Below are positions 6,692 to 20,251 of a stretch of DNA of 64,000 nt, in pieces. Position 1 is the first letter of the stretch, and every line of letters begins with the position of its first letter. The notes under the pieces are model-generated. The model was not told where the DNA came from. It did not search any database and saw only the letters and a list, made by a program, of their open reading frames with translations. The stretch is from Mesorhizobium sp. YIM 152430. Lineage in GTDB: Bacteria; Pseudomonadota; Alphaproteobacteria; Rhizobiales; Rhizobiaceae. The stretch covers positions 1 to 64,000 of the forward strand of contig NZ_JARGES010000032.1 in the NCBI RefSeq assembly GCF_029210365.1, given 5' to 3'. Both the position numbers and the translations under genes were made by a program.

Positions 6692-7738
6692 TCAGGTTGC
6701 GACCTTGTTCAATTGATGTTCGATGGCTGCTGCGGATGCAAGCACGTCCTCAAATTCAGGCGCCGTTCCGAAGATCATTGCGGTCGTGTTGGCGTAGTCT
6801 TCCTTGAGCGCCGCCACCATGCCGTCGACAGGCTCAATGGCGAATGTACCCGGCATGGCCGAGGCGAGGTCCATGTCAGGTCGGTTGAAGAACATCCGCG
6901 CATGTCGGACGCAATCTGCACCGAGATCAAAATCTCCGAGGGTAGCCAGGCCCACATCTGAGTTTAGGAGGCAATGAAGATCGTAATAGTGCCGCGACAC
7001 GCGTTGACCTTCTTGGCGAAGGACGCCACGCCGCTCATACCAGCGGCGCAAGCCATGCGCGATGACAACCTTGTCCCAGAAGGTCCGTGTTGCCTCGACA
7101 GTGGTTACGTCAGCTACTGCCAAATCCAATGATGACGCCTCGTCGGCGATGTAGGGGCGGATCGTGACGGGCCGATTAGGATCAAGCGCTGACTTTGCGC
7201 CGGATTCGATTCGAACGGCTGGGCGCACATATGCGCCGTCGCGCGGCTCAACCTCTGGATACCAGACGAGAAGTGTCTGTCCGTCGGGATCGGCCTCGTC
7301 GATCTCGATGCGCCCTACACCACCGGTTAGGTCGGCCAGTTGCTCGGCAAGAAGTTCTCGAAGCGGGCCGGTGATATACGCGCGGCACGCGTCCCGGATC
7401 GCATCCAGTCTGGCACGGCGTTTCTTGTTCGAGAGGGCTTCGAGTTCTTCGACCGACGCCGGTTCGTGGAGATCATCGCGGAAAACGGTGATGTCGATAT
7501 CCTCGGAGAACCGTTGAATGAGACCGTAAGCTTTCGACAGCGATGTGCCGCCTTTGAAGAGGAGGCGCGGCACTCCGGTAGGTCGCTCATGATAGAGCGC
7601 GTTCAGGGTCCAGCACACCCAGAAGTCCTTCTCGATATTACCCACTGGCGCTCCGAGACGGTTAGCGGTTGCCAGGAATAGATCGAGCCGGTCCCGCGCG
7701 GGGGTCTCGACGACCTGCTTGTAGGCGGTCGTGCTCAT
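6692..7738 (-). CDS. abiEii: AbiEii/AbiGii-family nucleotidyltransferase toxin
   Basis: Toxin of an AbiE type toxin-antitoxin/abortive infection module, 348 aa. The nucleotidyltransferase signature is clear near residues 60-85: LFKGGTSLSKAY followed by RFSEDIDI, giving the GG-S and D-x-D metal-binding residues. Proteins of this family transfer nucleotides to tRNA or other targets and stop growth until phage infection or plasmid loss is resolved. The gene starts 4 bp inside the end of the antitoxin gene (ATGA overlap), so expression is coupled. On a repABC plasmid the pair can act both in phage defence and in plasmid maintenance. The length and motifs look intact. Confidence 0.9.
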   Translation of the reverse strand: MSTTAYKQVVETPARDRLDLFLATANRLGAPVGNIEKDFWVCWTLNALYHERPTGVPRLLFKGGTSLSKAYGLIQRFSEDIDITVFRDDLHEPASVEELEALSNKKRRARLDAIRDACRAYITGPLRELLAEQLADLTGGVGRIEIDEADPDGQTLLVWYPEVEPRDGAYVRPAVRIESGAKSALDPNRPVTIRPYIADEASSLDLAVADVTTVEATRTFWDKVVIAHGLRRWYERRGVLRQEGQRVSRHYYDLHCLLNSDVGLATLGDFDLGADCVRHARMFFNRPDMDLASAMPGTFAIEPVDGMVAALKEDYANTTAMIFGTAPEFEDVLASAAAIEHQLNKVAT

Positions 7739-8403
7739 TGCTCGGCCTCGTTGGTATCGACGGGAGTGACAAGGTCGCGCAGGAATTCCTGCATCCAGAT
7801 CGGCAGGGCTGAAAGGCCGGCGCGAAGGTCGTCACGGATCGCTTTTCCGTGTTTCGGATCAGCGAACAAACGGCGCAGCACATCCCCTACCCGGTCTCGC
7901 TCGTCGTCATGGGACAGCATGTCCTGCATCCAGTACAGGGCCTGGACGACGCGCATGGCCGGTCGGTCGGCCCAGTAGAGCCGGCTCGGGGCGGCGAACT
8001 TGAAATGAATTTCCTGCTTGCCGAGTTTGATCGGCTTCAGCCGTGCATCAACCAGCACTTCGATGCGCGCCGGGACGGCCGTGGTAAGACCGAGATCGTT
8101 TGCGGCGGTCATGCCGTCGACAACGGCCCGCGCCTGGTCGCGACGGGTGACAGCACGGATCACGGCCCGATAGTCCGGAACGGTGGGCCGTCCCGTCAGG
8201 GAGTTTTTGCGCGGACGATCATAGAGACCGCGATCAATACGGCGAAGCTCGCCGGCGGCGGCGAGCCGCTGCAGGGTTTTGTCTATGGCGGCACGCCCGC
8301 CGAGATCGGCGAAATCGGCAGGCGTCCAGACCTCGTCGGGCTGAGACGCAACCCGAGCAAGCAGTTTGGAACGCAGATCTGTCTCTTGATTTGGATCCGT
8401 CAT
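7735..8403 (-). CDS. abiEi: DUF6088/AbiEi-type antitoxin and autorepressor
   Basis: Antitoxin partner of the nucleotidyltransferase toxin, 222 aa. The N-terminal winged-helix region (about residues 10-65: WTPADFADLGGRAAIDKTLQRLAAAGELRRIDRGLY) is the DNA-binding part of AbiEi/DUF6088 proteins. The C-terminal domain would counteract the toxin. Two large palindromes directly precede the start codon, as expected for autoregulation. The nearer palindrome touches the ATG, leaving no room for a Shine-Dalgarno sequence, so translation may be leaderless. I see no better downstream start that keeps the whole winged helix. Confidence 0.85.
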   Translation of the reverse strand: MTDPNQETDLRSKLLARVASQPDEVWTPADFADLGGRAAIDKTLQRLAAAGELRRIDRGLYDRPRKNSLTGRPTVPDYRAVIRAVTRRDQARAVVDGMTAANDLGLTTAVPARIEVLVDARLKPIKLGKQEIHFKFAAPSRLYWADRPAMRVVQALYWMQDMLSHDDERDRVGDVLRRLFADPKHGKAIRDDLRAGLSALPIWMQEFLRDLVTPVDTNEAEQ

Positions 8404-8473
8404 GTCCGAAAAATGTCACATTTTTCGGACGCCAACAAGAGAGTCCGAAAAATGTGACATTTTTCGGACTCTC
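8404..8473 (-). promoter_or_regulatory. Twin palindromic operators of the AbiE module
   Basis: Two nearly identical 27-bp palindromes with half-site GTCCGAAAAATGT occupy 8404-8430 and 8443-8469. The second extends to a 35-bp palindrome (8439-8473) through flanking GAGAG/CTCTC. The centres differ by one base (GTCAC versus GTGAC). Centre-to-centre spacing is 39 bp, close to four helical turns, so two dimers would lie on the same DNA face. They sit immediately upstream of the antitoxin ATG. Paired inverted repeats bound cooperatively by the antitoxin are known for AbiE systems. Confidence 0.8.
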
Positions 8474-9145
8474 TTCGACCGCACAGTACGACCAATTCGC
8501 CTTGAATTGCATATTCGCGTTGTCATTTCATTACTCATGCAAACGAGAATGCAGCTAAGCGGGCGGCAGCCTCAGTACGCGACGTGACGAAAGATTGTCG
8601 TTGGCTGCGGAAGGAACAAATGGCTGAATGGGGGCCGACAGCGGACTGGCGGGTTTCTAAATTGCCAGACGGCAGAGCGGACATTCAACCGCACCGTTGC
8701 GGCGACATTTTCGGCCCAAAGCTGCCGATTGGTGGACAACAAATGTATGTCCGCTTTGCGCCCCCATCTCGGTCATTGGCACGGTCTTGACCCTCCTCCA
8801 AAAGCGGACATTGTCGGCGCTCGCGCCGTAAGCGAGTTGTCCAGTCTGCTCGTCGAGTTCTTTGAGTTCGCGGCTGGGAGGGCGAGTGTGGCTTCACGCT
8901 GTGTTATTCGATGCCCTGATCCCCTTTCTGTGTTCGAGAGCCACCCCTCTACGATGTGAAACTCTGAGCTTTTCAGTGGGGCCATTGTTGGGAGCCGATG
9001 AGGGGTTAGTCAGTCCGCCGGTTCACAGAGGTCACCACCGCTATTTGCACAGCAGTCATCAGTGCACCGTGGAATGTCAGAGAATCAGAACCATCAATTG
9101 ACAATGTCAGATTTCCTCCCTATCTTGCGAGACACGGAGGTTGCC
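8474..9145. other. Intergenic region between AbiE and defence island
   Basis: About 670 bp with no coding region I can defend. It must contain the minus-strand abiE promoter near its left end and the plus-strand promoter for the island near its right end. The words GCGGACATT recur here in degenerate context, as often seen in decayed intergenic DNA. No tRNA, integrase or attachment-site duplication is visible. Confidence 0.4.
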
Positions 9146-9724
9146 ATGACTGATGGTCCGTTCAAGAATCTGAAGCTTGGGAGCTGCTGGAAGCGGCTTG
9201 CCGAGGCGGTGCAGAACGATGCGGCATCTCTAGCAGACTGTGGTGCATTCGCTTCGGACGCGCTGGCTCGCCACCTCGTCACCACGGAACACGCCCAGGC
9301 GCTTCAAGAAGTCGATGCGCATATTGCCCGCGGTCAGCTGGAACTCGATCCGCTTGGTTCGATCGAAGCTATTTTCGATCACTGCGAGAAGACGCCCTTC
9401 CTCGACGCGCTCCAGAAAGAGTTGCTGTTCCGCGCCGCCAACGACACGCCCCTCGGCGACGCGATCGCGCCAGCACTCGACGCCGCCATCGACACTCAGA
9501 TCAGTGAAGCCCGAAACCGCTTTCAGGAAGAGTGTATCCGGGCGCAGGAAGCAGGCGAGCTGGGCCGAAGCCCGGCGGATCGGGTACGCGAAAAGATTGA
9601 TTCCGCCTTCGACGCAGTGGCGAGCGCAAAAGTCCGTGACGCTCTGTTGGCGGGCAAGAAGGATGCTTTCGAGAAGGACTTGGGCAGAAGCGACGGCGTC
9701 GACGAAGGGATGGTCCGCTTGTGA
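9146..9724 (+). CDS. Small helical protein, first gene of QatC-like operon
   Basis: An unrecognised 192-aa, acidic, helix-rich protein without signal peptide. The ATG at 9146 is chosen because GGAGG lies 5 bp upstream; earlier in-frame ATGs (for example 9104) lack one. A central coil-like segment (ARNRFQEECIRAQEAGELG) suggests an oligomerising or partner-binding scaffold. Its stop overlaps the GTG start of the QueC-like enzyme (GTGA). In Qat systems the gene before the QueC-like enzyme encodes QatB, a protein of unknown fold that associates with it. This gene sits in the equivalent place, but I see no sequence match. Confidence 0.7.
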   Translation: MTDGPFKNLKLGSCWKRLAEAVQNDAASLADCGAFASDALARHLVTTEHAQALQEVDAHIARGQLELDPLGSIEAIFDHCEKTPFLDALQKELLFRAANDTPLGDAIAPALDAAIDTQISEARNRFQEECIRAQEAGELGRSPADRVREKIDSAFDAVASAKVRDALLAGKKDAFEKDLGRSDGVDEGMVRL

Positions 9725-11112
9725 ACACTCACTTGACCAGTCCCGAGCGTTACGGTCTGACGCTGCGCGTTATCGAGGCAGGCCGTACGCACCGTCCGGT
9801 TCGTCCCAATTCCGAGACCATCGCCGAAATCGGCAAAGAAATCGCCTTCGTTCCCGATGCCCTGGACACCTACGACTACGAGGGATGGAAGCCGATCCAC
9901 CATGACCTTCTGGTGGTCAGTGCTGCTGTTGAATATGCCGACCGCCGCACCGCAAGGCGGATCAGTCGGTGGGCCCGCGATTTCAACATCACCGTACCCG
10001 TCGTCGAGGTTGCGACGTGGCAAGAGCCGAAGGTGCAAGCAAGCCTTCGGGCAGCGCTGCGGCACCTCACGGGCGACGATTGGCAATTCAGCTTTGTTCC
10101 ATGGCAGGGCCAGAGCGTCTTGGGGGCACGGCAGCGGTCGCTTCCGTTTGGCACGGAGCGGAGCTTCGTCATCGCCTATAGCGATGGGCTAGATTCGCGT
10201 TGCGTCTCGAAGGTATCGGGAAACGGAAGCGACGCCGTTTGTGTACGCGTGACCAAACATCGCCATACCTTGAAGGCGGGCGATGAACCTTTCGACCAGA
10301 TCCCGTTTCGGGTCGACGTCCCCTCGGCGCGAGAAAGCAGCGTACGTTCGCGCGGCTTCAAGTTCGCCGCTGTGACGGCTATCGCCGCGCACCTGACGGG
10401 GTTGACCAGGATCGTGGTCCCCGAAAGCGGTCAAGGCGCGCTTGGCCCGGTCCTCTTGCCCCTCCACAACGTGTATGCCGACTACCGGAACCACCCGACG
10501 TACTTCCGGAAGATGGAGCGGTTCATCAAGACGGTACTTGGGCACGACATCCGCTATGACCAACCGCGCCTGTGGAACACGAAGGGCGAGACCATTTCGG
10601 CCTTTCGGCTTGCCACGAACAAAGCGGTCGACGAGCTGTTCGAGACCCGCTCATGCTGGCAGCAGCGTTGGAACGCAAAAATGGACGGCAAGCTGCGGCA
10701 GTGCGGCCTGTGCGCTGCATGTCTCCTTCGCCGGATGAGCATGCATGCCGCTGGAATAGAAGAGCCGGATCACACCTACATCATCGCTGATCTCACTGTT
10801 CCGGCCTTTCGGGATGCCCTTCCAGGCAGGGAGAAAGTCCGCTTGAGCCGAACGATGGCGGAATACGGAAGCGTTGGCGCTCGGCACTTCCAGCAGCTTG
10901 CCGTCATGGCAGACCTGCCCGATGCGGCATTGAACGTTCATGCCTTCGAAATTGCACGCGCGACGGGGGAAGCGCAGGAAGACGTCTTGAAGAACTTCAG
11001 GAACATGTTGCTGACCCATGCAAAGGAATGGCGCGCCTTCATGGCCGCCCAAGGAAAACAAAGCTTCTTGAGAAGCTGGACGCAGGGAGGGCGCCATGGC
11101 CGATCTGAATGA
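9721..11112 (+). CDS. QueC/QatC-like PP-loop ATPase (7-cyano-7-deazaguanine synthase-like)
   Basis: A 463-aa protein. Residues 1-150 form an extra N-terminal domain absent from housekeeping QueC. Residues 151-160 give the PP-loop (AYSDGLDSR, variant of SGGxDS), which binds ATP. A four-Cys zinc site follows: C312 and CGLCAAC at 328-334. QueC makes preQ0 in tRNA queuosine biosynthesis, but no other que gene is nearby. The extra domain and the defence neighbourhood point to the QueC homologues recruited into antiphage operons (QatC, type IV CBASS). The start is GTG, overlapping the upstream stop; the 3' end overlaps the next gene by 17 bp. Confidence 0.8.
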   Translation: MNTHLTSPERYGLTLRVIEAGRTHRPVRPNSETIAEIGKEIAFVPDALDTYDYEGWKPIHHDLLVVSAAVEYADRRTARRISRWARDFNITVPVVEVATWQEPKVQASLRAALRHLTGDDWQFSFVPWQGQSVLGARQRSLPFGTERSFVIAYSDGLDSRCVSKVSGNGSDAVCVRVTKHRHTLKAGDEPFDQIPFRVDVPSARESSVRSRGFKFAAVTAIAAHLTGLTRIVVPESGQGALGPVLLPLHNVYADYRNHPTYFRKMERFIKTVLGHDIRYDQPRLWNTKGETISAFRLATNKAVDELFETRSCWQQRWNAKMDGKLRQCGLCAACLLRRMSMHAAGIEEPDHTYIIADLTVPAFRDALPGREKVRLSRTMAEYGSVGARHFQQLAVMADLPDAALNVHAFEIARATGEAQEDVLKNFRNMLLTHAKEWRAFMAAQGKQSFLRSWTQGGRHGRSE

Positions 11113-12286
11113 ACTGAGCGCGCAGGAAATCGGTCGCCGCCTGCGCTTGGCGAGGGAGAACGCGGGCATCCGTCAAGATGAGGCGGCCGAGGTCATCGGC
11201 ATGTCGCGGCCGACTCTTGTGTCCATCGAAAAGGGCACGCGGCGCGTCCGTATTCAGGAGTTGCAGCTTCTTGCGCGGCACTATGGAGTTTCCGTCAACA
11301 GCCTTCTGCGTCGGGAAGCGGTTCATACCGATCTGATGCCCCGTTTCCGTAAGATGCGTGAGACGGAGGACGACCATACGCTCGAAGCCGTGGAGTTTCT
11401 CAATGTCCTGGTGAAGGCGGAGGTGGAACTTGAAAACGTCCTCGGGATCGAACGGCGGCGACACTACCCGCCGGAGAAAGGGATCAACGAGGGCGACGTT
11501 GTCGAACTTGCCGAAAAGCATGCGCAAGAGCTTCGCGACTGGCTCGGGCTCGGCGCGGGTCCGATCGGCGACATCTTCTCAGTCATCGAGCTCGATCTCG
11601 GCATCCGCCTATATCAGCGACGGCTATCTTCAAAGTCTAAGGTCGCTGGCCTGTTTGCCTATGATGACGCCATCGGAGCCTGCATCCTTCTGAACGCTAA
11701 TCACCCGCTGGAGCGGCGTGTTCAATCCGCTGCTCACGAAATCGGACACTTCGTGGGGACGCGCCGCGTCCCCGAGGTCTTAGGGGACGACGAGCAGTTC
11801 CTGTCCCGCGATGAGCGCTACGCCAACGCCTTCGCCCGTGCATTCCTGACGCCGCGCAAGAGCTTCTCGGAGAGTTTCAAGCAACTGACGGCCGGCGCCG
11901 ACATGCTCACCCGTCGTCATGTCATCTTGCTAGCGCACCAGTACAACATCTCCCGCGAGGCGTGCGTGCGCCGCCTCGAAGAGTTGGAGCTTCTGAAAAA
12001 GGGGACGTGGGAATGGCTCAAGACGAAGGGGGGGATCAAAGACTACCACGCACGCGAGGTGCTTGGAGACGCCGCAGAGCGGCTGGATGTGGCCAAGACC
12101 GACGCCAATCGGCCCGTATCCCACAGGATGAGCCTCATGGCGCACGGGGCCTGGAAGCGTGGCATCATGTCGGAAGGGCAGTTGGCCGAACTGCTGAAGA
12201 TGCGCCGCGTGGAGGTGCGCGAGCTGATTGACCAGATTGAGCTCGAGGAAAACGTGACGGATGACCTTCTCAAGCTCCCTAGCTGA
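11096..12286 (+). CDS. XRE-family HTH / ImmA-IrrE metallopeptidase
   Basis: A 396-aa two-domain protein. Residues about 9-70 form a Cro/C1-type helix-turn-helix (AGIRQDEAAEVIGMSRPTLVSIEKG). Residues about 140-290 are an ImmA/IrrE (COG2856) metallopeptidase with zinc motif HEIGH at 214-218 and a downstream Glu-rich helix (RDERYANAFARAFLTP). Family members cleave repressors or partner proteins on a damage or infection signal. The C-terminal 100 residues are an unassigned helical extension. GGGAGG precedes the ATG. It overlaps the previous gene by 17 bp and the next by 26 bp, which argues for tight co-production. It may regulate the operon, act as effector switch, or both. Confidence 0.85.
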   Translation: MADLNELSAQEIGRRLRLARENAGIRQDEAAEVIGMSRPTLVSIEKGTRRVRIQELQLLARHYGVSVNSLLRREAVHTDLMPRFRKMRETEDDHTLEAVEFLNVLVKAEVELENVLGIERRRHYPPEKGINEGDVVELAEKHAQELRDWLGLGAGPIGDIFSVIELDLGIRLYQRRLSSKSKVAGLFAYDDAIGACILLNANHPLERRVQSAAHEIGHFVGTRRVPEVLGDDEQFLSRDERYANAFARAFLTPRKSFSESFKQLTAGADMLTRRHVILLAHQYNISREACVRRLEELELLKKGTWEWLKTKGGIKDYHAREVLGDAAERLDVAKTDANRPVSHRMSLMAHGAWKRGIMSEGQLAELLKMRRVEVRELIDQIELEENVTDDLLKLPS

Positions 12287-12935
12287 CGATCTTAGACCGC
12301 TGGTTCTCGACACGAGCGTCCTGATCAACCTGCACGCCTGTACCTACGGCGAGCGGGTGTTGACGGCCATCGCGAATGACATTGTCGTGCCCGACATCGT
12401 GGCCGGGGAGTTGGAGCACGAGACGAGCCGGAAGAACGGAGACCACAGTTTTCTTCGCGGCCTCATTGCGCGCGGCAAGGTAATGGAAGCCGGCATGACC
12501 GGCGCGGACTACGAGCTGTTCGCCACTCTGTCCGGCGGGTCTCCTTCTCTGGATGACGGGGAAGCCGCGACGATTGCGATCGCGGCACGTCGGGGGTTCC
12601 GAGCCGTCGTCGATGAACGAAAGGGCCGCACTCGGGCAGTGGGGCTGATGGATGGCCAGGAACCCGGCTGGTCCCTCGACCTCCTCCGACATCCCAGCGT
12701 CGTGCAAAGCCTTGGCGAGCATCTGGCCGCTGACGCCGTCTATCTGGCGCTGCGCGATGGGCGAATGCGCATTCCAGCGGAATGCGGCGACGCAGTCGTT
12801 GGATTGATCGGCCGAGAGCGTGCGCTTGAGTGCTCCTGCCTACCGAACTTCAAGAATCTGTCGCGGGATGCGGCGCTTTCGGCGCCGCCACAAGCACATG
12901 CGATTATCCGGCAGGAACGAATCGACACGGAATAA
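12261..12935 (+). CDS. PIN-domain-like nuclease
   Basis: A 224-aa protein with a PIN-type ribonuclease layout: first Asp in LVLDTSVLINL (about residue 17), acidic GELEHE near residue 50, LDDGEAATIAIA near 97-108 and a final acidic residue in VVDERKG. These can assemble the metal site of an RNase H-like PIN fold. The ATG lies 26 bp inside the preceding metallopeptidase gene, so it is translationally linked to it. There is no adjacent small antitoxin, unlike VapBC; the HTH-protease could take the antitoxin role. I regard it as the probable toxic effector of the four-gene operon, by inference. Confidence 0.75.
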   Translation: MTFSSSLADDLRPLVLDTSVLINLHACTYGERVLTAIANDIVVPDIVAGELEHETSRKNGDHSFLRGLIARGKVMEAGMTGADYELFATLSGGSPSLDDGEAATIAIAARRGFRAVVDERKGRTRAVGLMDGQEPGWSLDLLRHPSVVQSLGEHLAADAVYLALRDGRMRIPAECGDAVVGLIGRERALECSCLPNFKNLSRDAALSAPPQAHAIIRQERIDTE

Positions 12936-12997
12936 ATCCACTCCACGGCAGACCCGTGTCTGCCAACCGGAGTCGAAAATAATCGAGGGGTTGAACA

Positions 12998-14731
12998 TTG
13001 GCACGGATACGCGCGGTCGAGATAAAGCACTTCAGAGGCATCAAGGAACTCGTTTGGCATCCCTCGCCCGGCATCAATTGTTTGATTGGGCCGGGGGACA
13101 GCGGAAAGTCGACCATCCTCGACGCCGTCGATTTCTGTCTGGGCCCGCGCCGAAACGTCCAGTTCACCGACGCGGACTTTCATCGGCTGGATGTCGAGAC
13201 GCCGATCACCATCACGGTGACCCTGGGCGAGCTTGATGATGGTCTGAAGAACCTCGACGCGTACGGGATGTTCGTCCGTAGCTTCGACCCCGCGACCGGG
13301 AAGATCGAGGATGAACCGGAAAAGGATGCGGAAACCGTCCTGAGCCTGCGGCTAACGGTCGCCAGTGATCTGGAACCGAGCTGGACGCTGGTGTCGGAGA
13401 GGGCGGAAGCCCAAGGGCTTGACCGAAATCTCAGTTGGGGCGATCGGGTGCGGCTGGCGCCGACCCGGATCGGAGCTCTGGCGGACTACCATCTGGGTTG
13501 GCGGCGCGATTCGGTTCTGAACCGTGTCTCTGAGGAGCGTGCGGACGCCTCGGCCGCCCTGGCCAAGGCCGCGCGGGATGCACGGGCCGCCTTTGGCGAA
13601 GAGGCCCAAGGCCAGCTGGGCGAGACGCTCGGCATCGTGGCGACGACTGCTAAGGAGCTGGGCATACCGGTCGGCGAGAACATCAAGGCGATGCTGGACG
13701 CGCACTCCGTGTCGTTCAGCGGCGGGATGATCTCTCTGCACGACGAAGGCGGCATTCCACTTCGGGGATTGGGAATCGGCTCGACCCGCCTGTTGATCGC
13801 CGGCCTTCAGCGAAAGGCTGCTGCGCAGTCGACGGTCATCCTGATCGACGAGTTGGAACACGGGCTTGAACCGCACCGCATACTCCGGCTTCTCGCGTCG
13901 CTCGGCGCAAAGGAAAAGTCGCCGCCGCTCCAGGTCTTCATGACGACGCATTCGCCGGTTGCTTTGCGCGAGCTTTCGGGCAGCCAGTTGTTCGTGGCAC
14001 GCCGGTCGCCCGGTGGCCACGAGGTGTTGAACGTGGGCATCTCTGACGGCGTGCAGAGCACGATCCGCCTCTATCCCGATGCCTTCCTCGCCCCGTCAGT
14101 GATCGTTTGTGAAGGAGCAAGCGAGGTCGGTCTCGTCCGGGGTCTCGACCAGTACAGGACGGCAATTGGGAGGGACGCCATCACGGCGTTGGGGACGGCT
14201 TTGGTCGATTGCGGTGGCGGAGATTCTGACCGACCTTTCGCAAGAGCGGACGCTTTTCACGCGCTGGGGTACCGGGCTGCGGTCATCCGTGACGACGATA
14301 AGAAGCCGACGGCCGCCATCGAAGACGGTTTCATCGCGAAAGGCGGCAAGGTGATTGCCTGGCGTGACGGTCGGGCTTTGGAGGACGAGCTCTTTCAGAC
14401 CCTGTCCGATGACGGGGTCAAGAAGCTGCTGGCCCGCGCAATCGAGCTCCATGGCAACGACTTGGTGAATGAGCACATCAAGTCGGCGACCAAAAACGCA
14501 AAGGATCTCGCAGCGATCTTGGCAGAGGCGGAAGCGGGTGGGATTTCCCCGGATAGCCGGACTGCCCTCGGCGCGGCGGCGCGAACGAAGCGAGCTAGGT
14601 GGTTCAAGTCGGTGACTTGGATGGAGGACGTGGCGCGGGACGTCGTTGGCCCGGACCTCGCGCATGCCGACGCTGGCTTTCGCGATCTTGTCGAGAGCAT
14701 CTTCGGGTGGTGCGCCAATGCCAGCACCTGA
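12998..14731 (+). CDS. OLD-family ATPase/TOPRIM nuclease (GajA-like)
   Basis: A 577-aa protein. The N-terminal ABC-type ATPase has Walker A GPGDSGKST at 31-39, an RGLGIGSTRLL signature-like segment, Walker B VILIDELEHGLEP and the switch His in MTTHSPVAL. The TOPRIM nuclease domain begins near residue 367 (VIVCEGASEVGLV), with Asp residues in VIRDDDKKP. The architecture and size match overcoming-lysogenization-defect nucleases, including GajA of Gabija, which degrades DNA when nucleotide pools fall. The following gene encodes a UvrD-like helicase, as in Gabija. The start is TTG with GAGGGG upstream. A 62-bp gap separates it from the PIN gene. Confidence 0.85.
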   Translation: MARIRAVEIKHFRGIKELVWHPSPGINCLIGPGDSGKSTILDAVDFCLGPRRNVQFTDADFHRLDVETPITITVTLGELDDGLKNLDAYGMFVRSFDPATGKIEDEPEKDAETVLSLRLTVASDLEPSWTLVSERAEAQGLDRNLSWGDRVRLAPTRIGALADYHLGWRRDSVLNRVSEERADASAALAKAARDARAAFGEEAQGQLGETLGIVATTAKELGIPVGENIKAMLDAHSVSFSGGMISLHDEGGIPLRGLGIGSTRLLIAGLQRKAAAQSTVILIDELEHGLEPHRILRLLASLGAKEKSPPLQVFMTTHSPVALRELSGSQLFVARRSPGGHEVLNVGISDGVQSTIRLYPDAFLAPSVIVCEGASEVGLVRGLDQYRTAIGRDAITALGTALVDCGGGDSDRPFARADAFHALGYRAAVIRDDDKKPTAAIEDGFIAKGGKVIAWRDGRALEDELFQTLSDDGVKKLLARAIELHGNDLVNEHIKSATKNAKDLAAILAEAEAGGISPDSRTALGAAARTKRARWFKSVTWMEDVARDVVGPDLAHADAGFRDLVESIFGWCANAST

Positions 14732-16139
14732 GATCGATTTGCTCGCCATCGACCGCGGAACCGTGACCGCCCCGGCCGGATGCGGAAAGACGCACCTGAT
14801 TGCAGAGGCGCTGACGCGGCACAGCGCCGATAAACCTGTCCTTGTTCTGACCCACACGAACGCCGGTGTCGTTGCCTTGCGGGGGCGACTCGACAAAGCC
14901 GGTGTGCCGTCGAAGGCATATCGGCTTTCGACGATCGACGGATGGGCCATGCGGCTCATTTCGAGCTTCCCGACGCGCAGCGGCCACGATCCGGACCTTC
15001 TCAAGCTGGCTCGACCGGGGACCGACTACCCAAACATTCGCGTCGCGGCCGCAAGGCTGCTGAAGGCTGGTCACGTCGCCGATGTGCTCAAAGCCAGCTA
15101 TGCGCGGTTGATCGTAGACGAGTATCAGGACTGTTCGATCCGCCAGCATGCCGTCGTCGCCTTCGCTGCCCAGACGCTTCCGACCTGTGTACTCGGCGAT
15201 CCCATGCAGGCGATCTTCGGGTTCGGCGGCGACAATCTGGCGACCTGGGACGACCAAGTCTGCGGCTACTTTCCGCTGGCGGGAGAGCTCGCGATGCCGT
15301 GGCGCTGGATCAACGCAGGCGCCGAACCGCTGGGGCAATGGCTGCTGGACGTCCGCGGCAAGCATTTGAGGGGAGAGCCGGTCGACCTCCGCACCGCGCC
15401 TGACGGTGTGACCTGGGTCCACCTCGACGGAACGAACGACCATGAGAGACGCCTTGAAGCCGCGCGGGTCAGACCGCCCGGCGCGGACGGCCGCGTGCTG
15501 ATAATTGGCGAGAGCACAAGCCCCGACAGTCAGCGGCGGTTCGCAAGTCAGACGCCCGGAGCGGTGACTGTGGAAGCGGTCGACTTGAAAGACCTCGTCG
15601 CGTTCGCAAGGCGCTTCGACCTTGCATCGCCACAGGCGCTGCAACACCTCGCCGAGTTCGCGCAAAGCGTGATGCGCAACGTGGGCGCAGCAGATTTCGT
15701 CCAGCGCGTCTCGGCACTCCAGCGTGGCACGGCGCGAACCGAGCCCACCGAGGTCGAGGGGATCGCCCTCGCGTTTATCCGTGATCCGTCGCATCGACGG
15801 GCTGTCGACGTCCTTGTCGAGATCGGCAAGCAGGGTGGTATCACGCCCCACCGTCCTGCCGTGCTCCGTGCCTGCATCAAGGCCCTCCAGCTCTGCGACG
15901 GCACGGAAGGCATGTCCTTTTACGATGCAGCCATTCGCATGCGGGAACAGAACCGCCTCGTTGGCCGCCCCCTCCCCAAACGTGCCGTCGGCAGCACCCT
16001 GCTCTTGAAAGGCCTCGAAGCGGAGGCCGTCGTCATCCTGAACGCCGATGCCTTAGACGCACGGAACCTCTACGTCGCAATGACCCGCGGATCTAAACAG
16101 CTAATCGCTTGTTCGCGGTCGCCAATATTGAGTCCCTAG
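14718..16139 (+). CDS. UvrD/Rep-like helicase (GajB-like)
   Basis: A 473-aa superfamily 1 helicase-like protein. Walker A is TAPAGCGKTHL near residue 20. Motif Ia is LVLTHTNAGV. Walker B is LIVDEYQDCS near residue 130, followed by motif III (VLGDPMQAIFGF) and, near the C-terminus, KGLEAEAVVILNA and LYVAMTRGSKQL (motifs V and VI). It is compact, as GajB is, lacking large UvrD insertions. It overlaps the OLD-family gene by 14 bp, so the two are co-translated. Earlier in-frame starts lie deep in the upstream gene and are unlikely. The pair is best described as Gabija-like. Confidence 0.85.
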   Translation: MPAPEIDLLAIDRGTVTAPAGCGKTHLIAEALTRHSADKPVLVLTHTNAGVVALRGRLDKAGVPSKAYRLSTIDGWAMRLISSFPTRSGHDPDLLKLARPGTDYPNIRVAAARLLKAGHVADVLKASYARLIVDEYQDCSIRQHAVVAFAAQTLPTCVLGDPMQAIFGFGGDNLATWDDQVCGYFPLAGELAMPWRWINAGAEPLGQWLLDVRGKHLRGEPVDLRTAPDGVTWVHLDGTNDHERRLEAARVRPPGADGRVLIIGESTSPDSQRRFASQTPGAVTVEAVDLKDLVAFARRFDLASPQALQHLAEFAQSVMRNVGAADFVQRVSALQRGTARTEPTEVEGIALAFIRDPSHRRAVDVLVEIGKQGGITPHRPAVLRACIKALQLCDGTEGMSFYDAAIRMREQNRLVGRPLPKRAVGSTLLLKGLEAEAVVILNADALDARNLYVAMTRGSKQLIACSRSPILSP

Positions 16140-19100
16140 ATTGGCTGGCGGTCGAGTGGACTGTATGGTCTCTGCGCAATTTGACCATCGGGGGAGGCTT
16201 AACAGTTTATATTTCCCGCGCGCTCGTCGTAGACGAAAAGACCTTTACTGAAGAAGAGCTGCTTCAGGTGGGGACGGTATTCGTTGTCTTGGCGGAACCG
16301 GGTGCGGGCAAGACCGAGCTGCTTAAGGCGCTTGCCGGGCTGCTCCAGGCAAACCGGACTCGCGCCAGCATCTTCCAGAACAAGCCGGGGCTCGCGGGAA
16401 CCGGCCCGCTCGTTATCGACGCGATGGACGAGGTCGCGCGGATCGACACCGTCGCGACCGACAAGATCATCGCGATGGCGAGCGAGACACCGGCGGCGAC
16501 GGTCGTCTTCGCGAGCCGGTCGGCGGAGTGGGACCGCAGCCGCACGGCGTATGTCGAGCAGTGCTTCGGTGCGAAGCCCGTCGTCGTGCATCTGCGGCCC
16601 TTCAACGAAGACGAGCAGCGCCAGCTCTTCGAGAGCAAGTTTCCCAGCGAGCATTTCGAGGCCTTCGCTGCGGAGGTTCATCAGTTTGGGTTAGGCCCGT
16701 TGCTTGGCAATCCACAGTTTCTGATCCTGTTCGGCGAGGCCTACATCGAGAGCGGGCGCGTCTTCACGTCGAAGGCGAAGATTTTCTCGGATGCAATACG
16801 TCGTCTCGCGCACGAGGCGAACACCGAACGGCCAATACCGAAATTGAAGCCGCCGCTTGACGCCATCATCGCAGTTGCAGGCGAGGTGTTCGCCAAGCTC
16901 CTCTTGTCCGGCGCGACCGGCATCGCCACGGTCGAGAGTTTAAGCGACCGCGATTTTCCCTACATCAATGCCCTGTGCCGCGACGCATCGAACGCACCCT
17001 TCCTGATCGATACGCGGTTGCTGAAGCCCTCGGACGATCCGGACGAGCACGAACCGATCCATCGGATCGTCGCAGAATATTGTGCTGCGTCGTATCTGGT
17101 GGGTCGGATCGAAGATCCGAAGGACCGACTCTCCTTGGAACGGGTCCTTGCCGTCGTCGCACCGAATGGCGTGACCCGCGACGAATTGCGCGGTATGGCT
17201 GGCTGGATGGCGGCGCTGGGACATCAGCCGCTACAGTTGCGCCTGATCGAGCTTGATCCCTATGCGGTGCTGGCGAACGGCGATCCAAGCCAGCTGACGA
17301 CGGCGGCAAAGCGCGCTCTGTTGTCGGCCTTGGATAAGCTCGCGGATTTGGAGCCGCTGTTCCGTCGCAGCGACACCTGGCGACGCTTCAACGTCGGTCA
17401 GTTTTTCACGCCGGACATTCTAGGTCCGGTTCGCACGATCCTGAGGAAGCCGGGGCAGTTTCGCACGCTTGTCCTTGAGCTACTGATCGACACGGACGCG
17501 GCGGCCAGTCTATTGCCGGAACTGTCGGTATTGGTCCTCAATACGGCGACCGATAGCGATACCCGGAAGTGGGTCGGCGAGGTCCTGCTGGCCGCCGGCA
17601 CCTTTGATCCTGCGGTCGAGTTCGATGCTCTGGTCGCGGAGGGCTCGGCGACGTCGCTTGAGATCGTGGCGCGATGGGTCACCAAGCGCGGCGTTGAATC
17701 GGTCGGCGCGGCCAAGGTTGCAGACCTTCTGGACAAGCTCTCGGTGCTGTACGGCACGCCAAACCGCAGGCATCGTGACGGGACGTCGCGCTATTTCATC
17801 GACCGCCTAGTGCAGTCTTTCACGCTCGCCGAAGTCACGAACTTTCTCGATGCCCTGACGACGGGCCTCGTCTGTACCTGCGCGCCCAAGCACGCCTATG
17901 CGTGTACGTGCCGGTACGGAAAAAGCAAAATCCTCGGTCGGCTCCTTGATCGGTATTTCGAGCTTGCGGAAGCAGGAACGCACGACCCGGCTCGCATCTG
18001 GCAGTGGATCAGATCGCTCCATTTCCAGAGCAACGCAACGACCGAGCGGAGCGCGTCGGTCAAGCATCTCGTCGCCAATGACGAGCTTAGGCGCGACCTT
18101 CAGCGGCGTGCCGTCGAGGGCTTACGCGGCGAGCAGGCGCAGAACGCGGTTATCGAGCTGTATTCGAGCCACGCGCACTCTGGCCTGCATATGCATGTCG
18201 GCGACCCGGACGCGCTCAGCCAGTACGCTTTCGACCACAACATGGTGGACGTTTGGGGATCGCTTCTCTCCGGCCATAACTTATGGGGCAAGGAGAAAGG
18301 GCCGAAGGCGCTTCGCGCGACGCAGCGTGCGCAAAGCCAATTCTCACCCGATTTCATGCGACTGTGGGCGAGACGAGAGCGGGCCCGACGCGAATACTGG
18401 CGCGACGAGCGTCGCGTGACCCACATACGCGGCCGGAAAAAACGGGCGGAGAAGGAAGCGGCGGTCGAGGCCAATAACCGGGCCCATCTTCGCGCCAACC
18501 TCGCGGAAATCGAGGCGGGACGCCATGGATGGTGGCTCACGGAATTTACCCGCGCTTTTCTCTATCACCCGGATGAACTAGAGTGCATGGTCGACAATCC
18601 GCAAACGCCGCTGCGCGCGCTCCGAAACTGTTTGCCTTTCGTCGAGCCGCACATCCCCACTGTCGAACAGCTGGGCCAGCGCAAGAGTACCAACATTGCC
18701 GAGATTTTGCTCGCGGCCCTGATTGTCCTGTATCGCGACGGTGTCGACCTGACGATTCTCGATCCGCGCATACTGGCGGCGGCGAAGACCGAAGCAACAT
18801 CGTCCTACCCTGTGTTCAAGGACAGTGAGGCCGATGGCGAAGCGTTCGAGGCGGCGCTCGACGCAGCGCTGTTCAAGGAGCCAGGATCGGCGGAAACGTT
18901 CTTACGCGCCTACATCGAGCCTCAGCTGGCCGAGCCCGAGAACGCGCCGCAGCATGTCTATTGGTTAAATAACAAGCCCGCCTTCCACGATTTGCGCGCG
19001 ACGCTGCCGATGGAATGGCTGGAGCGCTTCCCGCAGATGCCCCAGGAGGCAATGCGGCCGCTGTTCGGCATGGCATCGCAGTACGGGCGGCGGGAAGATC

Positions 19101-20251
19101 TGATTGCGCTCATCGATCGGCGTTGCGGTGATCCACTGGTCGATAGCGGCAAGGAAACAGAGGAAGACAAGCGCGCACGCGGTCGCCGAAAATTCTGGCA
19201 GCTCAATGCCGTGCTTTATCGGACGCCCGGTCATGACGCCGCGTGGCAGGAACTCAAGACTGATCCGCAGGCAATCTTCGGTTTCGAAGGCCGCCTTGGC
19301 CGAATGTACGAGCGGGAAGACGACGACCATCCGCCTATAACGGCGGAGACCATCTACAAGGTCATGGATGCGTTCGTGCCGGTTTGGCCGAAGGTTCATC
19401 TGCCGAGCAGCTGGGGCACAGGCGATCCCGAAGACCAGACGGCTTATCGTTTCCTGCGGGATTGCATCTGGAGGATCGCGGAGGATGCGCCGGAGCGCAG
19501 GATAGAGGTGCTCGACCGCATGCTTCCCGATGCGCGTTTTGCGGACTACCACGAGGCGATGCTGACGATGCGGGCCGAAGCCCAGCGAAAACTCGCACTT
19601 CAAGATTTCAGGGCGCCGCGTCCGTTGGAGATATACAAGATGCTCGAAGAAAACGACGTGGCGTCGGTCGAGGACCTTCGGGCCTTGATGGTCGAGCAGT
19701 TGGAAGAGCTGCAGCGTTGGCTCAACGGCTCGGAGACCGATCCGCTTGTTTCCTTCTATTACGGCGACAAGCGCGTCGATGAAAACACCGCGCGCAACAG
19801 GATCGTGGATCAACTGCAAGGGCAAATGAAGGCCCTTGGCTTGTCGATCGTGATCGAGCGTTACATGGCGGGCGGCAATCGCTGTGACATCACCGCGTCC
19901 GCCATTCTGGAAGGACGCAATCGCCTTCTCGTGACGGAGGTGAAGGGCCAGTGGAACGACGAGCTATACTCGGCTGCCGCCGCACAGTTGGATCAGCGAT
20001 ACGCGATTCACCCCGACGCTGCGCGTCAGGGCGTCTATATCGCACTGTGGTTTGGCAACGGCGAAAAGGTCAACGGTCTGGTTGATGCGAGCGTCACATC
20101 GGCCGGCGATCTGAAGGCGCGCATTCTCGATAAGATGACGGATGAGCTGAAGGCGCGGGTTGACGTGGTTGTGCTCGACCTGTCGCGGCCGCCCAAATTG
20201 CCGAAGCCGCCTAAAAAGACGTCTGCGAAGAAGGCCGCGCCCAAAAACTAA
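16109..20251 (+). CDS. NACHT-type NTPase with C-terminal PD-(D/E)XK-like domain
   Basis: A very large protein (up to 1380 aa). Walker A LAEPGAGKTELL is at about 61-72 and a NACHT-style Walker B, LVIDAMDEV, at 101-109; a sensor-like SRSAEW follows. Long helical repeats fill the middle, typical of STAND sensors. An unusual CTCAPKHAYACTC cluster near residue 590 could bind zinc. Near residues 1250-1290, CDITAS followed by LLVTEVKGQW and a downstream Gln resemble a PD-(D/E)XK nuclease core. A Lys/Pro-rich tail ends the protein. The start is uncertain: TTG at 16109 overlaps the helicase gene, TTG at 16181 is an alternative, and neither has a good ribosome-binding site. A bacterial NLR-like antiphage protein is the best reading. 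Confidence 0.8.
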   Translation: MFAVANIESLDWLAVEWTVWSLRNLTIGGGLTVYISRALVVDEKTFTEEELLQVGTVFVVLAEPGAGKTELLKALAGLLQANRTRASIFQNKPGLAGTGPLVIDAMDEVARIDTVATDKIIAMASETPAATVVFASRSAEWDRSRTAYVEQCFGAKPVVVHLRPFNEDEQRQLFESKFPSEHFEAFAAEVHQFGLGPLLGNPQFLILFGEAYIESGRVFTSKAKIFSDAIRRLAHEANTERPIPKLKPPLDAIIAVAGEVFAKLLLSGATGIATVESLSDRDFPYINALCRDASNAPFLIDTRLLKPSDDPDEHEPIHRIVAEYCAASYLVGRIEDPKDRLSLERVLAVVAPNGVTRDELRGMAGWMAALGHQPLQLRLIELDPYAVLANGDPSQLTTAAKRALLSALDKLADLEPLFRRSDTWRRFNVGQFFTPDILGPVRTILRKPGQFRTLVLELLIDTDAAASLLPELSVLVLNTATDSDTRKWVGEVLLAAGTFDPAVEFDALVAEGSATSLEIVARWVTKRGVESVGAAKVADLLDKLSVLYGTPNRRHRDGTSRYFIDRLVQSFTLAEVTNFLDALTTGLVCTCAPKHAYACTCRYGKSKILGRLLDRYFELAEAGTHDPARIWQWIRSLHFQSNATTERSASVKHLVANDELRRDLQRRAVEGLRGEQAQNAVIELYSSHAHSGLHMHVGDPDALSQYAFDHNMVDVWGSLLSGHNLWGKEKGPKALRATQRAQSQFSPDFMRLWARRERARREYWRDERRVTHIRGRKKRAEKEAAVEANNRAHLRANLAEIEAGRHGWWLTEFTRAFLYHPDELECMVDNPQTPLRALRNCLPFVEPHIPTVEQLGQRKSTNIAEILLAALIVLYRDGVDLTILDPRILAAAKTEATSSYPVFKDSEADGEAFEAALDAALFKEPGSAETFLRAYIEPQLAEPENAPQHVYWLNNKPAFHDLRATLPMEWLERFPQMPQEAMRPLFGMASQYGRREDLIALIDRRCGDPLVDSGKETEEDKRARGRRKFWQLNAVLYRTPGHDAAWQELKTDPQAIFGFEGRLGRMYEREDDDHPPITAETIYKVMDAFVPVWPKVHLPSSWGTGDPEDQTAYRFLRDCIWRIAEDAPERRIEVLDRMLPDARFADYHEAMLTMRAEAQRKLALQDFRAPRPLEIYKMLEENDVASVEDLRALMVEQLEELQRWLNGSETDPLVSFYYGDKRVDENTARNRIVDQLQGQMKALGLSIVIERYMAGGNRCDITASAILEGRNRLLVTEVKGQWNDELYSAAAAQLDQRYAIHPDAARQGVYIALWFGNGEKVNGLVDASVTSAGDLKARILDKMTDELKARVDVVVLDLSRPPKLPKPPKKTSAKKAAPKN

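Follow-up and report, generated by a model that had tools for sequence, protein, structure and literature searches.

Architecture of the Four-Gene Operon

The window analyzed here is a 64,000-nucleotide stretch of DNA from Mesorhizobium sp. YIM 152430 (assembly GCF_029210365.1, contig NZ_JARGES010000032.1, positions 1–64,000), and its subject is a run of four genes, p1 to p4 (hereafter the quartet), which occupies window positions 9146–12935 with all genes on the + strand. Successive genes overlap by 4, 17, and 26 bp; these coordinates and overlaps agree with a sequence-only reading that had singled out the set as a candidate defense operon. The genes are as follows, in window coordinates:

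9146–9724, + strand: p1, a 192-amino-acid, all-helical protein, the proposed substrate of p2 and candidate functional counterpart of QatB
9721–11112, + strand: p2, a 463-amino-acid QatC-like enzyme of the QueC family, with a PP-loop at residues 154–159, zinc cysteines 312, 328, 331, and 334, and the motif Y252-x-D254-x-R256
11096–12286, + strand: p3, an Xre-type helix-turn-helix (HTH) domain and an M78/IrrE metalloprotease domain (HEIGH at residues 214–218, E240), followed by a C-terminal SEGQL region
12261–12935, + strand: p4, a PIN-domain nuclease, the proposed toxin

The quartet as such is named by no PADLOC (2023), NCBIfam, or Pfam profile, and no description of it was found in a search of the open-licence literature in PubMed Central, a search by which absence from print cannot be shown. 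Within these sources, the earlier description of the operon as undescribed holds for the combination of four genes and fails for its second half, since the pairing of such a protease with a PIN protein is already a predicted toxin–antitoxin (TA) system (PMC2701414). Profile searches relate p2 to QatC, p3 to Peptidase_M78 and HTH_3, and p4 to PIN (in 20 of 39 relatives).

Conservation and Distribution of the Quartet

The recurrence of the quartet is far beyond chance. A 14-row p2 profile run against GTDB-representative genomes gave 227 relatives. Of these, 80 were returned and examined, and in 77 of the 80 loci the four genes stand in the same order. Two of the three exceptions lie at contig ends (L055, L093), and in the third p3 is split and p4 is missing (L072). 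Altogether, 108 p2-related loci were examined and 91 carry all four genes (77 genome loci, 11 plasmid loci, and 3 loci from a search of the window's class); the remaining 17 consist of 14 non-quartet QatC-type enzymes or fragments and 3 partial quartets.

The plasmid searches point the same way. A search of 72,556 plasmids with p2 gives 67 matching records, and in 25 of these the match covers 80% or more of the query. From the 25, 11 quartet loci were opened, and each has its four genes in the order given above. The top 25 plasmid matches of p3 fall in these very records, with identities no lower than 41.6%, and the next match is 30.6% identical; p4 matches the same 25 records and one orphan gene on a Microvirga plasmid. 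Quartets are found on conjugative and mobilizable plasmids, and some copies are chromosomal (for example, L070 and L108). Judged by gene content across these loci, the four genes form a constant, mobile unit.

Carriers are mostly Alphaproteobacteria, and also include Paraburkholderia, Pseudomonas, Hahella, and Hydrocarboniphaga, together with metagenome bins labelled Cyanobacteria, Acidobacteria, and Geobacter. Only 3 of 385 sampled genomes of the window's class, its own genome included, carry a strong p2 match, so that the system is sparse.

Certain copies deserve separate mention. Damaged-looking quartets have a fragmentary p1 (L032, L041, L056), a split p3 (L054), or a short p2 (L087), which, together with L072, suggests decay or assembly errors. 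The locus labelled Latescibacterota (L055) and a Henriciella bin (L054) share an identical sequence upstream of p1, and L055 is probably misbinned. The orphan PIN gene of the Microvirga plasmid (L154:5935–6573) has no p1–p3 beside it and lies upstream of a frame piece that looks by eye like part of a transposase gene.

The QatC-Like Enzyme p2

The enzyme p2 matches the PADLOC QatC profile at an E value of 7.8e-33 and the NCBIfam QatC profile at 121.6 bits, under the 280-bit equivalog cut-off, whereas its Pfam QueC match falls just below the curated cut-off. Its match to the solved QatC structure 9vlk (E 2.6e-31) is likewise far stronger than that to QueC 2pg3 (E 3e-5). The PP-loop SDGLDS (residues 154–159) and the four zinc cysteines (C312, C328, C331, C334) are intact, as first read, and S154, G156, D158, S159, and all four cysteines are invariant in 92 of 92 family members. 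An N-terminal extension of 150 residues, which had been noticed as an unusual addition, is real and is a normal feature of QatC (PMC13279940); its novelty does not stand.

Quartet enzymes differ consistently from other QatC-type enzymes, for which a comparison set of 12 was used (2 of the 14 non-quartet loci, the fragment L016 and the weak match L018, were omitted, and two enzymes encoded beside a protein beginning MGHIRLG were included). At the second position of the PP-loop, quartet enzymes have Asp, Asn, Glu, or Lys and 12 of 12 others have Gly; quartet enzymes also have ESGQG where the others have ENG. A motif YxD[YFHL]R[NST]xP is present in 91 of 92 quartet enzymes by an alignment-free motif count, whereas 12 of 12 other QatC-type enzymes have TR[T/S]xHP and no YxDxR. 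In p2 this motif, Y252-x-D254-x-R256, falls on YPDCR of QueC, both by hmmsearch against 2pg3 and by hhalign against 15 QueC proteins; YxDCR is present in all 15 QueC read. The likeness to Cap9 is by published motif, Cap9 itself standing outside the alignment. The Tyr-x-Asp pair recognizes carboxy-deazaguanine (CDG) in QueC and Cap9, and in Pseudomonas aeruginosa QatC the residues T278 and T280 occupy this base-binding position and their mutation abolishes defense (PMC13279940).

A wholly new substrate pocket was considered for p2 and rejected. It had been suggested by MAFFT columns 254 and 256 (Asp and Arg in 92 of 92 quartet enzymes vs. Thr and Thr/Ser in 12 of 12 others), where gap placement is ambiguous: hmmsearch against the solved QatC moves the gap by one residue, and the alignments to QueC place Y252-x-D254-x-R256 on YPDCR.

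A quick maximum-likelihood search on 68 rows gave a tree in which all 50 quartet enzymes form one group (support of 96 in the Shimodaira–Hasegawa-like approximate likelihood ratio test, the single measure used), separate from 14 Qat enzymes and from a two-member third group; a long-branch warning touches the QueC outgroup and the quartet. By alignment, p2 is a QatC-type scaffold carrying a QueC/Cap9-type base-recognition motif that other QatC-type enzymes lack. The sequence-only reading was right that the enzyme is QatC-like; it is not a simple QatC, since it keeps the QueC-type motif and its partner has an N-terminus unlike that of QatB.

The Partner Protein p1

The extreme N-terminus of p1 is nearly invariant. 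When the first [MVL]xDG within the first 120 residues was taken as the start, 90 of 94 frames begin M[ST]DGP, the others being one MVDGP, one VRDGI, and two fragments. This is the count to use, because in the p1 alignment A2 (48 rows) the invariance of M1, D3, G4, and P5 is partly by construction; its input was restricted to M[ST]DG sequences (76 loci), of which 47 were left after near-duplicates had been dropped. Outside the N-terminus p1 is poorly conserved, with a mean column identity of 41%, and it has no Pfam match. An AlphaFold2 model has a mean predicted local distance difference test score of 88.8 and eight helices, with a disordered C-terminal tail and lower confidence in the first ten residues. 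A Ser or Thr at position 2 should lead to removal of the initiator methionine, exposing Ser/Thr rather than Gly.

A C-terminal tail of the form [D/N/E/G][D/E/Q/A]G[P/V/M] is present in 81 of the 94 p1 proteins. In the window this DEGP-like tail (9686–9721) resembles the protein's own N-terminal SDGP, and could be a pseudosubstrate, a degron, or a protease site.

Among the 16 non-quartet loci read, 14 have a QatB that can start at MGTS, and in the other two (L140, L141) the protein encoded upstream of the enzyme starts with MGHIRLG; MGTS starts were placed by motif search, which found no motif in L140 and a spurious match, dropped, in L141. These two loci represent a third QatC-type group, in which the MGHIRLG protein (L140:3087–3863, − strand) lies beside a QatC-like enzyme of 615–617 amino acids. 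No QatA, QatD, protease, or PIN gene is found in the L140 stretch, and L141 is alike as far as its short downstream stretch reaches. Comparison of p1 with the MGHIRLG protein gave an E value of 0.008 and a probability of 4.9% with a two-sequence profile, a hint at most.

The N-terminal motif of the partner protein is essential in the cyclic oligonucleotide-based antiphage signaling system (CBASS) and in Qat (PMC13279940). As a group-specific invariant N-terminus of p1 accompanies a group-specific pocket motif in the enzyme, p2 likely modifies p1.

The HTH Protease p3 and the PIN Nuclease p4

The partners of the QatC-like pair are, as the sequence-only reading had proposed, a HEIGH protease and a PIN nuclease, each with Pfam matches and conserved catalytic residues. 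Protein p3 matches Peptidase_M78 (E 2.7e-15) and HTH_3 (E 3.1e-13). Within HEIGH (residues 214–218), H214 and H218 are present in 94 of 94 relatives and E215 in 93 of 94, and E240 is kept in 36 of 36. The model of p3 matches the folds of IrrE (3dti, E 7.2e-4) and of PprI bound to single-stranded DNA (8sln, E 6.8e-3), with the HTH part matching DdrO. The closest PADLOC family is RmrA (E 1.5e-23), followed by capP (E 2.5e-13) and a similarity to capH. The C-terminal SEGQL region is weakly like the antitoxin family UPF0175 (E 0.0016, below the cut-off), members of which are seen beside PIN genes (PMC2701414).

The match of p4 alone to Pfam PIN is weak (E 0.0041), and 20 of 39 relatives match, the best at E 2.3e-7; D17, E50, D99, E101, and D118 are invariant in all 39. 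The closest PADLOC family is the candidate PDC-S70 (E 2.9e-9). The ATG of p4 lies inside the end of p3 at a near-fixed place in 89 of 91 loci, the distance to the last base of p3 being 25 nt in 77 loci, 22 nt in 9, and 13 nt in 3. From the residues conserved, the HTH and the IrrE-type active site of p3 are complete, and so is the PIN active site of p4.

Fusions of an HTH domain to COG2856 adjoin PIN or RelE toxins and have been predicted to form three-component TA systems (Makarova 2009, PMC2701414), and in RosmerTA, a phage-defense system, proteases of this kind occur with toxins of various types (PMC10440598, in which a pairing with PIN is described as well). The two next relatives of p3 that were opened (H66, H67; 26–31% identical) precede small genes of no known family and not PIN genes; these encode 171-amino-acid proteins with no Pfam match (L118:5242–5757, L119:5257–5772), which are perhaps other toxins.

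Promoter and Putative Operator

Upstream of p1 the window contains the following elements:

9073–9080, + strand: AATGTCAG, a half-site of the putative operator, read directly; by eye, many relatives have a similar half-site at roughly this position
9098–9110, + strand: TTGACAATGTCAG, an operator-like palindrome that contains the −35 hexamer TTGACA (9098–9103)
9121–9126, + strand: the −10 element TATCTT, 17 bp of spacer from the −35 element, placed by eye
9136–9140, + strand: GGAGG, placed by eye

As the promoter is so close, the ATG at 9146 is supported as the start of p1. An operator pattern of the TTGACAWTGTCAG type occurs upstream of p1 in 80 of 89 regions, as TTGAC(A/T)(A/T)TGTC(A/G) or a form shorter by one base, usually 46–50 bp before the start codon. 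The pattern was written after the upstream sequences had been inspected; elsewhere in the same loci it has 5 matches in 2.28 Mb (both strands), and it occurs once in the window. Given its HTH domain, p3 may bind this conserved operator-like element.

QueC and QueE in the Hosts

The retention of Tyr-x-Asp favors a guanine-faced substrate such as CDG, and the capacity to make CDG was sought in the hosts by means of QueC and QueE. QueD (PF01242) was rejected as an indicator of the pathway: it has matches in 37 of 50 hosts, and the only match in the window's own genome is not beside other que genes. QueE was detected with a 12-row profile, a single QueE protein having lacked the sensitivity (it missed 2 of 8 QueC-positive genomes). 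As the profile itself misses some QueC-bearing genomes (no strong QueE in the carriers G406 and G425 or in the comparison genome G295), only the absence of both markers was counted.

The window's own genome, which is 99.84% complete, has no canonical QueC over the TIGR00364 cut-off and no QueE match. Among 50 other carrier genomes (50 of the 80 fetched, chosen as mostly named isolates), 42 have QueC over the cut-off, and the eight without it also have no QueE match above 25 bits (L038, L071, L077, L081, L091, L101, L105, L107); none of these eight is titled as a metagenome bin. A strong QueE match is present in 40 of the 51 hosts. The nine double-negative genomes encode ten quartet enzymes, two of them in the window's own genome, and all ten keep YxDxR.

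As 9 of 51 hosts have neither QueC nor QueE, host-made CDG cannot always be the substrate; in such hosts either CDG comes from outside, by uptake or from phage, or another guanine-faced carboxylate is used. For comparison, the same searches covered ten genomes with QatC-type enzymes outside the quartet (the class sample has 11 such genomes, and the weak match G308 was omitted): five have QueC, four have QueE, and five have neither. Three genomes with MGTS-type QatB/QatC (G340, G065, G252; loci L143, L144, L146) have no over-cut-off QueC and no QueE match, and they count as evidence against host-made CDG for Qat too. Host-made CDG is unlikely to be the general substrate of QatC-type enzymes.

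Genomic Surroundings

The quartet lies in a dense defense island (6692–20251), in which AbiEi/AbiEii, the quartet, Gabija, and EruA are contained within 13.5 kb:

6692–7738, opposite strand to the quartet, upstream: AbiEii (E 2.8e-101)
7735–8403, opposite strand to the quartet, upstream: AbiEi (E 2e-100)
12998–14731, + strand: GajA (PADLOC, E 3.3e-240)
within 14646–16139, + strand: GajB (PADLOC, E 4.7e-191)
16109–20251, + strand: EruA, a NACHT protein (NCBIfam, 1199.8 bits; cut-off 1000)

A second, diverged quartet is present in the same genome (contig C37, L125:3790–7484; its p2 is 40% identical), with AbiEi/AbiEii on one side and a type IIG restriction-modification gene on the other. Of nine annotated plasmid quartets, five, as a raw count, are near a recognized defense or restriction gene; the neighbors are Lit, AbiE, an Eco57I-type restriction gene, AbiE with an AbiJ-like gene, and Shedu, on one plasmid each. 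On a Methylocystis plasmid, genes of the E2/UBC family and ThiF (ubiquitin-like conjugation; L031:1–1571) lie about 4 kb from the quartet.

Proposed Mechanism and Alternative Explanations

We lean toward the view that the quartet is probably an abortive-infection-type phage-defense operon, in which a Qat-like tagging pair controls an IrrE-type antitoxin and a PIN toxin. In the proposed circuit, the HTH domain of p3 would bind the operator-like element and repress the operon, and the PIN toxin would be kept inactive by the C-terminal part of p3. With ATP, p2 would activate a guanine-faced carboxylate (CDG or a relative) and join it to the N-terminus of p1, the acceptor end being Ser/Thr-Asp-Gly-Pro after methionine removal; the model for this step is the action of Cap9 on the type IV CBASS CD-NTase (cGAS/DncV-like nucleotidyltransferase), and QatC is proposed to act on QatB in the same way. 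Once tagged, or once infection had altered its state, p1 would engage p3, whose IrrE-type protease would destroy p3's own repressor/antitoxin activity, so that PIN would be both released and derepressed and would cleave RNA, stopping cell and phage. Among these steps the joining reaction is best supported, and the trigger and direction of the engagement of p3 by p1 are least certain. Modification of p1 by the enzyme, the first step of the circuit in the sequence-only reading, gains independent support from the invariant N-terminus of p1 (90 of 94).

Several points weigh against this view of the quartet. The circuit and its order of events are inferred and do not come from experiment, and a host regulator, rather than p3, might bind the operator. 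Treating p1 as a sequence homologue of QatB failed (hhalign probability 0.7%), and at E 0.001 no fold resembling its model came up in PDB or BFVD, the PDB copy possibly being without QatB chains; as neither homology nor fold match was found, the analogy with QatB rests on gene position and N-terminal invariance. Position 2 of p1 is Ser or Thr and not Gly, so that either p1 offers an acceptor of another kind than the partners in CBASS and Qat, or its N-terminus serves for recognition only. The double absence of QueC and QueE in 9 of 51 hosts, the window's own among them, argues against host-made CDG. The Microvirga orphan shows that p4, in this one instance at least, can be maintained where p1–p3 are absent. 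Finally, tblastn found no relative in 50,697 phage records, and IMG/VR gave 34 pattern matches, none a relative; the same searches rule against a phage origin of the quartet.

A more specific proposal is that conjugation gates the TA module: a QueC-fold ligase would couple a guanine-faced carboxylate to the N-terminal Ser/Thr of p1 (S/T-D-G-P), and the state of the tag would tell the IrrE-type protease whether to release an RNA-cutting toxin. This we put forward tentatively, as a rather unlikely version. Phages with 7-deazaguanine DNA bases bring the corresponding pathways with them. If the proposal is true, hosts without 7-deazaguanine synthesis could obtain the carboxylate from phage, and infection would there be signalled by the substrate itself; phage DNA with 7-deazaguanine bases is mentioned in PMC13329287.

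Alternatively, the quartet could be two independent modules under one promoter, a self-sufficient QatBC-like defense pair and an HTH-IrrE/PIN addiction or back-up module, with no signalling between them. QatB and QatC alone protect against phage lambda (PMC13279940), the pairing of HTH-COG2856 with PIN is known elsewhere (PMC2701414), and the MGHIRLG protein and its QatC-like enzyme form a pair without protease or PIN in L140 (and in L141 so far as read). Independent modules would be expected to swap partners; instead, the order of the genes and their overlaps hardly vary, p2 and p3 single out an identical set of 25 plasmid records with the next p3 relative at 30.6% identity, and the next p3 relatives (H66, H67) precede small genes other than PIN, all of which makes this arrangement unlikely.

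Plain N-terminal deazaguanylation, in which p2 joins host-made CDG to p1 exactly as Cap9 would, agrees with the intact PP-loop and zinc site, with retention of the CDG-recognizing Tyr-x-Asp pair (PMC13279940) in 91 of 92 enzymes, and with the strong QueE match in most hosts (40 of 51). We consider it quite unlikely, as hosts without both QueC and QueE (9 of 51) nevertheless have enzymes that keep Tyr-x-Asp (10 of 10 sequences), and position 2 of p1 is not glycine.

That the quartet is an elaborated addiction system by which plasmids and islands are maintained, p2/p1 adding a further layer of antitoxin, would suit its presence on conjugative and mobilizable plasmids, its TA-like gene overlap, and its conserved operator, but is improbable given that some copies are chromosomal (L070, L108), that the window copy and the second copy sit among defense genes, and that those QatC-family enzymes for which tests exist act against phage (PMC13279940, PMC13329287).

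Comparison with Known Systems

The closest likeness is to qatABCD. In both, a QatC-family enzyme has N- and C-terminal extensions, a PP-loop, and a CGxCxxC zinc motif, and a helical partner with an invariant extreme N-terminus is encoded just upstream. Unlike qatABCD, the quartet has neither the KAP ATPase QatA nor the TatD nuclease QatD among the proteins scanned at 9146–20251, in accord with the initial reading, and no gene annotated as QatA or QatD was found around nine annotated plasmid quartets. The invariant Thr pair of Qat (T278/T280, TRT.HP) is absent and YxDxR stands in the quartet enzymes (91 of 92), the partner starts M[ST]DGP where QatB starts MGTS and has no detectable homology with it, and the quartet enzymes form a separate tree group. 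In a survey of the QueC family, qatA and qatD adjoin only about a third of the QatC cluster (PMC13329287); M78, IrrE, and toxin are not mentioned in the main text of that survey, whose supplementary neighbor table might list such genes.

Type IV CBASS resembles the quartet in that Cap9 is a QueC-family enzyme with Tyr-x-Asp, encoded beside a protein with an invariant N-terminus. It differs in that no CD-NTase or Cap10 is present among the seven proteins scanned at 9146–20251, the quartet enzyme has a large QatC-type scaffold, position 2 of the partner is Ser/Thr and not Gly, and some quartet hosts lack CDG synthesis. From canonical QueC, which acts in preQ0 synthesis, p2 differs in falling below the QueC cut-off and in having no QueE in its own genome.

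COG2856-PIN TA systems and RosmerTA (RmrA) likewise have a protein with HTH and M78 protease domains beside a toxin-type gene. In the quartet, this pair stands behind a QatB/QatC-like pair and no two-gene form was found, the p3 subfamily sharing all 25 plasmid records with p2; the p3 subfamily is also distinct, its next plasmid relatives being at most 31% identical. CapP/CapH and IrrE/DdrO (PprI) similarly combine an M78 protease with an HTH repressor, and the fold of p3 matches IrrE, PprI bound to single-stranded DNA, and DdrO, but p3 fuses the protease, the HTH, and a further C-terminal region in one protein and precedes a PIN gene in a QatC-like operon.

None of the sources searched describes these four genes as a fixed set, a QatC scaffold with a QueC-type motif, the N-terminal motif of p1, or the operator common to the loci. 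The parts themselves are known; what is new is the constant coupling of an HTH-IrrE/PIN pair to a QatC-like enzyme. This coupling shows that the QatBC-like pair is modular and is wired here to another effector type. About 90 natural loci, with a QatC-type scaffold, a QueC/Cap9-type motif, and a different partner N-terminus, bridge Qat and type IV CBASS and bear on the question of which small molecule QatC-type enzymes use.

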